DNA of 64,000 bases from Halocaridina rubra (Eukaryota > Arthropoda > Malacostraca > Decapoda > Atyidae): the NCBI GenBank assembly GCA_037179515.1, contig JAXCGZ010002349.1, positions 1 through 64,000 on the forward strand. The letters are read 5' to 3'. Below, in pieces: positions 42,719-51,900 of this stretch. Under the pieces are notes generated by a model. That model searched no databases. It worked only from the letters and a program-made list of their open reading frames with translations, and had not been told where the DNA came from. How positions within the stretch are numbered: position 1 is the stretch's first letter; every line of letters begins with the position of its first letter. Both the position numbers and the translations under genes were made by a program.

Positions 42719-42900
42719 CTAATTAATTGCCAGTGCATCAGACTGAGCTTCCATGCTCAGCTGGTTTTGGAGATCAGATAATTTCTTTTTTAAAGCTGCA
42801 ATTCCCATCATAACAATATTTTCAGGTTTTAGAGCTCCTGCAGACTCAACGTTGTAATAAAATTTATTTGGCTTGGCTGATGGGTCAAACTCGGCTTGAT
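42719..42900 (-). CDS. POLR2C: RPB3 terminal exon B (distal duplicate)
   Basis: Acceptor tatcctttttcag, phase 1. Same coding length as exon A (59 residues plus the junction residue). Encodes [18 protein letters not shown] through QSDALAIN with a TAG stop. It differs from exon A at 13 of 59 residues, mostly conservatively (F/Y, R/K, I/L, T/S), with many additional silent changes and no disabling change. No canonical AATAAA is seen in the 600 bases after the stop; ATTAAA occurs at about 42222-42227 on this strand. Confidence 0.9.
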
Positions 42901-45900
42901 CTGAAAAAGGATATACAAGATTAGTTGTTGGGGATAAAGGACTGTAAATTAACATGAAAATAATTATTCTGAGGTGGTGTCTGAACAACTGTCTCCAGAA
43001 AAATTCCCTCCTGGACAATTGCATCCCAAAAAACGTGCTGTACTTTTATTTACCATAATGATAATGGTAAAGATTGTTTTTGTTATCTTCAAGGTTAGGT
43101 TAGGTAAGATGACAGTTATAATACCATATTGTTAATTCATTCGTTATCTTCAAGGTTAGGTTAGATAAGGTAACCCAACACTGATGATAACAATAAAAAA
43201 AATTACATTATAATTACGATAAATAAACGTACTTGTTTTGGGGGCAATTTTTCAGAGGGCAGTTGTCCTAGAAACATGTGATGTAAACAGAATTATTGGT
43301 TATCCCTACTTAAACTTCCTTAGCAGTAAACTTCTACTAAATGAGAACAAAAATCTAATAATACTTCATTACTGACTATAACTGATCAAGTTTTAAGATT
43401 AATTGAAATTCAATATTTGAGAGTACACATTTTATCAAGAAGATACGGAAAATGAAATATGCATCCTATATATGCTTTTAAAAATTACCATTATCCATTA
43501 CCACTTTGTGCATTAAGAAATGAAATTTTTTCGCATAGTCTACAATATAGAATTGCGTAGTGCCTTACAATTAGGATGATTCATTAGCGAAAATATTAGC
43601 CTTATTATGAGCCAATTTTAAAGTCGTAGTTGTAGTAAATATATTCTAATTAATAAAATTAAATCAGTGTAGTCTTCTTACACTTTTTTTTTTTTCAAAT
43701 CTTACTTGAGAAATACCAGAATCTAAATATTCAGCCCTACAAACCATGCACTGATGGAATTCCACACAAGATATTATCACCAAACTGACATTAATATTAA
43801 ACTTGTCAAAACACTCAAAATGTCTCAAAAGTGTATTCTACAATGTACTGTTTAACATCAAAAGTATATATATATAAGCAAGTAAGCATTGCTGAAAATA
43901 ACTAATACCATGAAAAACTATAAATACTCAGTATGGAATGGCTTAGTTGACTTACATTGTTAAGTGTTAAAAATTAGGAGCGTATACAATACATTCTTTC
44001 AATATCCATCACATAATTTGATAATACAAACCATGACCATGGTATTTTGCTTTAAAACTCATTTCATCCCAGGTAAAACTATATTTTTGACATCTCTGAT
44101 AAAGGAAGAGAATATGATCCGGTCATATTACCTGCGTGTAGTATGAAGCCACAAACAAGGACTGAAAGTGATGAAATAGCAATCATTTCCTCCTTGGAGT
44201 AATTTTTTTTTTCTTTGAGGAAGTGGACCAATAAGCAAATAACAGTAACTATGACGATAGGCAGGGTATGATATAGTATTACATAAATTATTCTTAGCAG
44301 GACATGGCATATTACATGAATAATAATGTATATATTACCTATACATGAGACTTATAATGTAATAATATACAGGGGGTCCCCGATTTACGACAGGGTTCCG
44401 TTCCTGACTGCTGCCATAACTCTGATTTCATCGTAAGTCAAAAAACACCTAAATTCTAACCTAGGTCCCCCACCAATGCTAAAAATAAATACTCTAAAAC
44501 ATATGCGGTTGGTTGCATCTGGATAACTTCAGCCCCCATATCCAATTTGGGGTCGAACAGGTTAACACCAGCGAATGAGCACAAGAATAATAATATGGCA
44601 TACGAGCGGGAAGTGGGCGCCCTTCTTCCTCCCTTCCCCATTCTCACAGCATTAAACAATCTTTTTGCTTTCTCCTGAATCAACAGTGTTCACACTTTAA
44701 TCATATTGAGAGTATATAATCACAGCGAATGAGCACAATAACCAATATGGCAGAAGAGAGGTTTAGGTTCGGGTTGAGAAGCAATGCCTTTACAAAAGCG
44801 CTTCTTTTAAAAATGAGTTCTGATTGTGGTGTCCTTTTGGTTTCTATCTCCAAAATTTATATATATTTTTTTTGATTGTAAAAACTTTTCTTGTACTCAT
44901 TTATCCGATTGCAAAGATCATTACTTTTAATTTTTCTATTCATATCTTGTCTCATAACAGATTTCAGTTCTTCATAGGTGATATTTACTTTATCCATAAT
45001 TAGTTTAGTTGATATTGCCCAATAATCCCAATTTTTTTTTTTTTTGCTTTTCGGCCATTACTCTTTCCATGAGTTCATTTCTTTGATTTTCTTCTATATA
45101 CTTGAGGAAATTTGAACTAAGCAATGGTTTTCTTCTTCTTCTCAGTGTAATTCCTTCAAATAACCAAATACAGAAACACCCAAATTATAAAAAAAAATTA
45201 ACGTGATATATACGTATACAGTACTCCCTCATTTATCACAGGGGTTCGGTTCCGGGACCAGCCACGAAAGGTGAAAATTCGCACCATATTTATTACAGGT
45301 ATTTTACATTTATTTTTACCTTTACTGTATAAACCCTCCCTGCACTGCTAACAACTCACCCTTATTTTTATTAATAACAGCGCGCAAGCGAAAATTTATA
45401 TGAACGTGATATTATGAAGATTGAAAAAAAGCATTAAGAACAAACAGCAAACAAACTTTTGATATAATATCGTCAGGGAAATAGCGTGTAGAGAATATAT
45501 ATATTTCATTTAATTTTCCCATGTACAGTATGATATACATTTTCTTTGTAACGAATTGTATACGTTTTCTTTTTCTCTCAGCTGACTTTGTTTACGTTAA
45601 GATTTCGTGCAGCTTGGTCGATATGTAAAGAAGATAGAATAATGTTTTCTTTTTCTCTCAGCTGACTTTGTTTACGTTAAGATTTCGTGCAGCTTGGTCG
45701 ATATGTAAAGAAGAGAGAATAATGTTTAGAACCAAGGAATATTAATAATACTATAATCTTGAAAATTAGATAAATCCCAAATAGGGAGAGTAAATAAATA
45801 TTTTATGAGTAAGATATTGTGCCTGAATAGTGATAAGCATCAGCTGATACGGAATGTTTTGGTCAAAGGTTCGTTCTCCCGCATCCTCCTCCTCTTCTAC

Positions 45901-48900: not shown

Positions 48901-51900
48901 ATCTGCAAACATTTTTGCTCTAGCACGTTTTTCCCTGACGATATTATATGGCAAGTTTGTTCTTAATGCTTTTTTCCCATTCTCTCCATAATATCCGATC
49001 GCATTAAGCGGTAGAAGAGGAGGAGGATACGGGAGAACGAATCTCTTATCTGCAAACGTTTTGCCGCCTCCGTATCAGCTGATGCACTCTCGCACGCTAT
49101 TTCCCTGACGATATTATATCGCAAGTTTGTTTGCTGTTTGTTCTTAATGCTTTTTTTTCATTCTCTTCATAACATCCGATCGTATTAAGCAGTATTATAT
49201 ATTGCTTGAGTTACCATCACGATTCAGATAAGAAACACAAGTGTATCCTTGATGCAGGGCTTTTTTAAAAGCTGGAGTAATTTACATTCTTGCACCTATG
49301 CACTATTATAAAGAGATTTTATAGTTCCACTATAAAAAGAAAGATTCTCAAGAAGATATTATCTTCTTTCTAACAACTCCATTAATATGGACACACTATA
49401 TGTGATTATAAAGCAATAACACTGAATAACATGGTGAAGTCTCTTCATAAAACAATCTGTTAGGTCCCAAGCTATTCTCATATATTCACCAAACCTCCAA
49501 ATTTTGAAACTATTCTTACTATTTTTCTATGAGTTACACCGGGACAGGCAAGAAAATCGCCCTCATCAGGCCCCGGGCACCATGAAAACATTGAGACGAG
49601 CAAAAGTGGTAGCTTAAGAAATAAGAGAATGATAAAAAACTGGAAAAGGACAAATGAAAGAATAGTCGAATTAAGAAGGACCTAGAATAACAAGAGTAAA
49701 ATCACCAAAACTTCACCTAGAATTGAGCTCGAAAGCTCCATTATAAATATTAAATTTCATCAAAAAATTTCAACATATTAAGTATGACCCCTCTCATACC
49801 CATGATCACTGTTACACTATACCATAGAAGTACAGACTTTATTCTACTTATAAACATCTGGAGATACGAACATGCAGTCTACTATCATATGCAACAAGTT
49901 TCAAGAAACTTCAGACTTGCATCATGTGTCTTTAGAATATGAAAATATAGGTATTATATACTAACACAACTTTATTATGTTACAAACATGATGTAGGAAT
50001 GTTTGTACACCCAATACTGTACTGAAAATACAATATATCAACTTTAAACGGCCGTTCTAAACATAACTCATTCGTAAGATGGGGAGCATTTGTATATGCA
50101 AATATTGAACCAAATATGAAATTAAGCAGCATCTACTTTGTTTGTAAATTTAAAAGAATTATTGTCCCATTATTTAAACAGTTGTATATGCAACTTGTCC
50201 TATTTATGCTATATTTATAAGCTTGAACTGAAAAAGAAAAAATTAAATAAAGTTAGGTATGAGTTCATATGAATAACCGTGAATATGCGTTGTAAAAAAA
50301 AAAAAAAAAAAAAAAAAGATATAAAAATTCAATGTTTGAAGATTAGTTATAAATTCAAGACAAAATCTCACAAGAGTTAATAACAAGGCTGTTTACACCA
50401 AGTGAATCATGAATTTGAATAAAGCTTTAAGAGCACATTAACAGCTATGTAATTTAATAAAAATATTCTCATAAAATGGTTCACATACGATCATTTTATT
50501 GCTTTAATATATATATATATATATATATATATATATATATATATATATATATATATATATATATATATATATATATATATATATATATATATATATATAT
50601 ATATATATATATATATATATATATATATATATATATGTTTTCCATCAAATAACAGGAACAGCATATTTTCTTAATATATTTATACATGGAAAGTGTAAAT
50701 AACAGAAAGATATGTACTAATAACAAACCTATACTAACCTGGCATTAGTGAAAATAGGACCCAAAGCATTTCAAATTAATCTCAATTCACTTGGTATATA
50801 TATGCAGCCTATATGGTAAATCTTACAAGAAAAATTCAAGCAAAACATGCAATCTTGTTATATAAAGATATGGCATCCGACACCAGAACTCAATCTGAAG
50901 TAAGCACACCATTAAAACTGCAAACAATTATGAATGAAAATTTCAATCTGTTAATCAGATACAATGTACCAAAAATATACCGATTAACAAAAAATGTACT
51001 GCAGTACATTACAGTATTAACTGCTTAGTACACTTTTGTGTTTTGGGTTCTGCTGAAATAATTTATTTACCACTATGCCATAAGTACGAATAACATAAAA
51101 TTTTTGGTACATTAAAACAATTATTTTCTTGCATGGATGCTAGAGAAAAACTATGAACCTTAATACACAGAGTTTAAATTAGTTGATTGCCAAAGCATCT
51201 GTCTGAGCTTCCACTGTCAGCTGGTTTTGAATATCCGAGAGCTTCTTTTTCAGGACAGCTATCCCCATTAAAACAATGTTCTCAGGCCTTAAGGCACCAG
51301 ATGCCTCGACATTAAAATAAAACTTGTTGGGCTTCCCCACAGGATCAAATGAGGCTTGAGCTGTGAGCAAAGTCAAAGAAAAGATGCACACGGAATATAC
51401 AAATATTTTTCATATTGCTTAATGTTGCAACTCCAGGGATATTATTTTCTCACACCATATTTAGAGTTTATGATCAAGTTGCTGCAACCTGTTATAGAGA
51501 TTATCTTGAAAAGCTAACAAGCTCTGAATTAAAAGAACAGATGTACCATCACTCATATTCAGTACCCTTCTGTACATACCACAGTATACTGTACAAAACT
51601 ATGAAAGTTTAAAGACTTTGTATAACAAGAAATAGAAAATTATAATTGTCTTATAGATATCTATCGTCTTAATTTTGTAAATTCATTACAAATACTAAAA
51701 ATCTCGGAATGGTTCAGATATACGTGTAAGGGAAAAGAATTATGTTGATAAATACCGCACCAGTATTTTATATATACAGTACACAGGTAGTCGTCAATTT
51801 ATGACCATGCGACTTATGACTGTTTGACTTTACGACTGCAACCACAAATATGCATTGTATGTATGGCCATGATTACGTGGCATCCAGCAATGCAAGTGTT

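Follow-up and report, generated by a model that had tools for sequence, protein, structure and literature searches.

Two intact, diverged last exons in an RPB3 gene of the decapod Halocaridina rubra point to alternative C-termini of an RNA polymerase II subunit

RNA polymerase II (Pol II) is usually regarded as a single, invariant enzyme. For its subunit RPB11 (POLR2J), the partner of RPB3, one study (PMC6981380) reports that a minor human form, hRPB11b-alpha, binds ATF4 more strongly. Another route to alternative protein ends is the substitution of tandem duplicated exons, for which Martinez-Gomez et al. (2022; PMC9741552) count 77 of 236 human events that swap the C-terminus and give three quarters of the isoforms from such exons as tissue-specific. 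Here, we analyse a 64-kb stretch of the Halocaridina rubra genome (contig JAXCGZ010002349.1, positions 1 to 64,000; hereafter the window), in which a minus-strand locus comprises most of an RPB3 (POLR2C) gene with two last coding exons. We consider it probable (roughly 0.85) that the choice between these exons, which would go back to an old tandem duplication, yields two RPB3 isoforms and probably two forms of Pol II.

The two last exons, called A (proximal, 51179..51360) and B (distal, 42719..42900), lie on the minus strand downstream of a shared exon 4 (53642..53848, minus strand), whose donor CAGT/GTATGT (slashes mark exon borders) is able to feed both of them. Each of exons A and B is 182 nt long and continues a codon whose first base is supplied by the exon ending at 53642. 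When they are joined to exon 4 in silico, the frames are divisible by 3, uninterrupted and closed by AIN-stop, whereby A ends in TDALAIN-stop with S as the junction residue and B in SDALAIN-stop with Y. The resulting tails of 59 residues are identical at 46 positions. Splicing thus confirms the two intact last exons of equal length, phase and ending that an initial annotation had read from the DNA. The clean acceptors it had described look normal as well, that of A ending in CTTTGCTCACAG and that of B containing CTAAT and ending in CCTTTTTCAG. Its remark that exon A has its own AATAAA likewise fits, since this candidate poly(A) signal (51062..51067, minus strand) is found 111 nt past the stop. 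The assignment of the gene to RPB3 is borne out by the match of exon 4 plus tail A to human RPB3 residues 147-275 (E = 1.8e-62). The translation of exons 2-4 plus A is 91% identical to the RPB3 of Palaemon carinicauda, the match extends across the subunit with the tail included, and tails A and B each align on their own to human residues 217-275. Hereby, A and B present the picture of tandem duplicated exons, namely adjacent homologous exons of one gene in the same phase and order.

At the nucleotide level, A and B differ at 53 of 180 positions, and half of the identical residues (23 of 46) are encoded by different codons. The proportions of synonymous and nonsynonymous differences according to Nei and Gojobori are pS = 0.905 and pN = 0.123, so that the silent sites are saturated. 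Moreover, the flanks are unlike (19/60 identical positions upstream, 18/60 downstream), so that the pair is neither a recent segmental copy nor an allelic duplicate. An assembly artefact, i.e. a haplotype copy or a misjoined contig that puts a paralogous exon beside RPB3, is hardly credible: simple repeats, which can cause misjoins, abound in the region, but almost every silent site differs between A and B and their flanks are unlike, so that they are not alleles, and both tail types recur in RPB3 proteins of other species. A haplotype or assembly duplicate was consequently rejected. The same applies to an origin of exon B as a retrocopy, suggested by an A-run downstream, since this exon begins precisely at its border and is preceded by an acceptor of its own. 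In a neutral simulation (2000 runs on one copy, with 286 random substitutions for half the path and the saturated pS capped at 0.74), none of the runs showed 13 or fewer residue changes, 1879 acquired a stop, and about 54 of the 59 residues were changed.

Related tails were collected by three protein searches (1056, 41 and 44 matches) against a database with one entry per 90% cluster. Tails were classed among the best 120 of the 1056 matches by comparing the last 59 residues end-on without alignment; rows with shifted ends gave meaningless counts and were not used. Eight of the proteins that were new in the two smaller searches were read, and the tail tree was extended by P0121. Judged by 13 diagnostic sites, B-type tails are present in Palaemon carinicauda (9 B, 3 A), Macrobrachium rosenbergii (10 B, 1 A) and Homarus americanus (11 B, 1 A), and P0002 is also of this type. 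A-type tails are found in Portunus trituberculatus (P0005; 10 A, 2 B) and in P0121, from a genomic contig, which joins Portunus in the tail tree. The tail of the krill Meganyctiphanes norvegica (P0008) is A-like, less clearly so (6 A, 2 B), and P0011 combines a krill-like body, i.e. the protein apart from its tail, with a B-like tail (2 A, 7 B). Exon B of the window shares 55 of 59 residues with the Homarus tail, and exon A shares 52 of 59 with that of Portunus. An absence of exon B from all relatives, which the initial annotation had named as evidence against its proposal, is therefore not observed, given the B-type tails of Palaemon, Macrobrachium and Homarus. The RPB3 proteins of these three species each carry the label 'isoform X1', which by NCBI practice presumably implies further protein models. 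This suggests that annotation pipelines may already have met the two tails without comment. One further protein, P0147, with an oddly high score for the B tail, was considered as a combination of A and B and rejected; it contains an internally repeated stretch, and its tail was judged to be insect-like.

Body and tail show different relationships in trees built from hand-chosen rows (22 for the body, 24 for the tail, with P0003, a near twin of P0004, omitted). In the body tree, Portunus and Homarus form one group (99/95), Meganyctiphanes pairs with P0011 (100/98), and the window falls together with Macrobrachium, Palaemon and P0002 (100/97). In the tail tree, tail A of the window groups with Portunus, P0121 and Meganyctiphanes (88/80); when P0121 and the krill are left out, window A and Portunus group at 96/98. 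The same discordance is seen in pairwise identities, where Portunus and Homarus agree at 192 of 197 body positions (97.5%) versus 44 of 59 tail positions (75%; p = 3.6e-7), and Meganyctiphanes and P0011 at 196 of 208 versus 39 of 59 (p = 1.3e-7). A third mixed pair, Portunus and P0007, gives p = 0.008. The other 9 of the 12 pairs tested comprise 8 with p > 0.05 and Macrobrachium/P0002 with p = 0.010. In the approximately unbiased (AU) test, window A and B as sisters are rejected (p = 0.0018), and a grouping of the five B tails fits slightly better than the free tree (p = 0.607). Placing all ten decapod- and krill-type tails in one group is not rejected (p = 0.528), and whether the duplication is placed before or after isopods and amphipods split off makes little difference to the fit of the trees. 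A duplication private to the window's own lineage was rejected on the basis of the AU result and of the A- and B-type tails in other species. Most likely, the tail duplication is older than the divergence between carideans on the one hand and lobsters and crabs on the other; an origin at the krill level is possible, and a decapod-only origin is also compatible with the trees. Taken together, the low pN relative to pS, the tails of relatives and the AU test support the earlier view of an old duplication held by purifying selection in both exons.

The distribution of residues was compared between groups that were picked with the data in view, and this comparison is descriptive only. At the positions corresponding to human residues 219, 251, 259 and 264, no residue is common to the four A and the five B tails. 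Position 259 holds I or V in A and L in all five B tails as well as in all 15 other rows used, so that A looks derived at this site. Conversely, among eight rows outside the malacostracan group the B state occurs once at position 219 (D/E) and never at position 251 (A), and due to this rarity B looks derived at both. Descriptively, each copy would thus have its own changes, as expected if both were kept for something.

Several observations weigh against a choice between two functional last exons. Among the sequences compared, no transcript or protein carries both tails in one other species, and A-tail isoforms of the B-tail entries would be hidden because each 90% cluster is represented by one entry. 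The implied 'isoform X2' proteins could also differ outside the tail. The Portunus protein derives from a 16-kb contig, lacks the usual N-terminus and carries nine extra residues (LHQPKHCHT) directly before its A-type tail, which probably reflect a misplaced acceptor in the annotation. Furthermore, the tail offers 59 columns only, and the clade of the four A tails carries no star. Forced groupings of the Portunus and Homarus tails (AU p = 0.184), of the krill and P0011 tails (p = 0.116), of the five caridean tails (p = 0.084) and of all eight decapod-type tails (p = 0.399) are not rejected, so that the trees by themselves prove neither a pre-Caridea nor a krill date. Finally, AATAAA is absent from the 1.3 kb scanned downstream of exon B, where the nearest of five other hexamers scanned are AGTAAA (312 nt past the stop) and ATTAAA (491 nt; 42222..42227, minus strand), the latter a possible weak poly(A) signal. 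The missing AATAAA would also suit the view that exon B (or A) only looks conserved and is a relic, a duplicated exon that is no longer spliced in this species, as would the fact that the support for exon use here comes from DNA and not from RNA. Such a relic is nevertheless very unlikely, since both exons are open, with good acceptors, and each is similar to its own type in Homarus or Portunus although the silent sites between A and B are saturated, and neutral decay as simulated would have altered nearly the whole tail.

The remainder of the gene and its surroundings bear on a further alternative, namely that exon B belongs, as its tail, to another RPB3 gene downstream which is partly lost or unassembled. 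Upstream of exon 4, the minus strand holds coding exon 2 (numbered so here; 60801..60972; peptide end MQYPR, borders TTTCAG/T and AGA/GTAAGT), which matches annotated decapod RPB3, and coding exon 3 (60167..60347), identified from its translation (peptide end YGESD) and clean borders. Exon 1 was not found within the window by tblastn and by reading of exon borders. An ISXO2-like (DDE_Tnp_IS1595) transposase fragment (62128-62421, minus strand; Pfam E = 5.3e-13) is located upstream of exon 2, presumably in the first RPB3 intron. By tblastn, exons 2-4 occur in one copy each, with no second set and hence no second whole RPB3 gene within the window. There is also no third tail copy in it: the exon A protein finds A itself, B (E = 4e-29) and otherwise nothing better than E = 0.14. 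In the 8.3 kb between A and B, none of 10 open frames has a Pfam match at the curated cut-off, three of them giving sub-threshold matches (E = 0.022-0.093), and Rfam yields no match at gathering score in the window. Downstream, tblastn with human stretches locates a POLDIP3/SKAR-like gene on the opposite strand (20342-35370, plus), so that exon B has A on one side and an unrelated gene on the other. Its RNA recognition motif (34775-35370) is seen in two pieces (34775-34933, E = 9e-12; 35317-35370, E = 0.024), together with a weak DAR-repeat-like piece (20342-20422, E = 0.015); six open frames from about this stretch have no Pfam match. The window also contains a LINE-type (long interspersed nuclear) element (10660-13544, plus strand), whose long open frames encode Exo_endo_phos and RVT_1 domains, and a tandem repeat (32969-33308, minus strand; repeating TTKKNRDCMVSTSPRNKYYKKEPRLHGVNIP) that is open in three minus-strand frames. 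Two versions of a subunit commonly arise by whole-gene duplication, and with exon 1 missing the gene is not seen whole in a search that spans the window only. We still regard a second gene as quite improbable, given the single set of exons 2-4, the lack of any RPB3 exon detectable by tblastn between B and the last recognised POLDIP3/SKAR-like piece at 35370, and the fit of exon B in phase and acceptor to exon 4.

We therefore return to two alternative last exons of one gene. According to this proposal, an old tandem duplication of the last RPB3 coding exon would have created two alternative terminal exons, and the single exon 4 donor would be joined either to A, across a 2.3 kb intron and with its own AATAAA, or to B, across a 10.7 kb intron. 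Because each exon carries its own stop, a transcript would contain one tail. The mutually exclusive use put forward in the initial annotation is the natural expectation for two stop-bearing exons and should need no special device. The products would be two RPB3 proteins with 14 C-terminal differences (13 within the exon and one, S or Y, at the junction) in a segment corresponding to human residues 216-275. The sequences themselves show the anatomy, intactness and phase of the exons, the presence of both tail types in other species and the discordance of body and tail; the use of both exons in RNA, the entry of both proteins into Pol II and any difference in their activity are inferred. Part of the RPB3 tail segment is the C-terminal helix packed against RPB11. 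In a passage of a 2026 review (PMC13374769), this helix is described as contributing to alpha-like heterodimerisation, and RPB3/RPB11 as contacting Mediator and some factors. The two tails would most likely fine-tune the enzyme at its RPB3-RPB11 end or modulate how factors bind to it, their use being biased by tissue or stage. Tissue bias is a guess by analogy, prompted by the three quarters of such human isoforms given as tissue-specific in PMC9741552. More tentatively, and with some doubt on our part, decapods and perhaps krill may long have used the choice of last exon in a single RPB3 gene to build two structurally distinct Pol II core enzymes, with the residues derived in A and in B located in the segment thought to face RPB11 and the enzymes specialised by tissue, stage or target genes. 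This would imply an age of several hundred million years. If true, a conserved choice of tails in a core assembly subunit would provide direct evidence that Pol II heterogeneity is built into an animal group, as well as a natural experiment on which C-terminal residues of RPB3 can change without breaking assembly.

Judged from the comparisons made here, the event is real, old and conserved in kind, and represents tandem duplicated terminal exons in an unexpected gene. Among the matches listed in our literature search (titles and abstract openings), there is no description of RPB3 alternative last exons in crustaceans, so that the arrangement, as initially proposed, is undescribed in the literature covered and to that extent only. 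The initial statement that the subunit is normally single-copy and invariant was somewhat too strong, as the match list contains the PDB record 8hyj, 'DNA-directed RNA polymerases IV and V subunit 3B', a plant protein. In plants, such paralogues likewise provide more than one version of an RPB3-type subunit in one organism; they differ from the present case in belonging to Pol IV/V and in being encoded by separate genes, and we know of no alternative last exon among them. The human RPB11 isoforms, as described in a passage of PMC6981380, share with the two RPB3 tails an alternative C-terminal end on an alpha-like Pol II subunit, there the partner of RPB3 itself, and may by analogy serve as a precedent for such an end changing factor binding. 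Hereby, the human isoforms stem from a multigene family and differ in a wholly different end of 10 residues, whereas here one gene offers a homologous tail of 59 residues. In the main text of PMC9741552, the terms 'polymerase' and 'POLR2' do not occur. Compared to the tandem duplicated exon substitutions treated there, the present case concerns a core Pol II subunit, comes from a crustacean and is predicted from DNA; in its homologous tandem exons with predicted alternative use, its apparent ancient origin and its mostly conservative changes, it resembles what that study describes.

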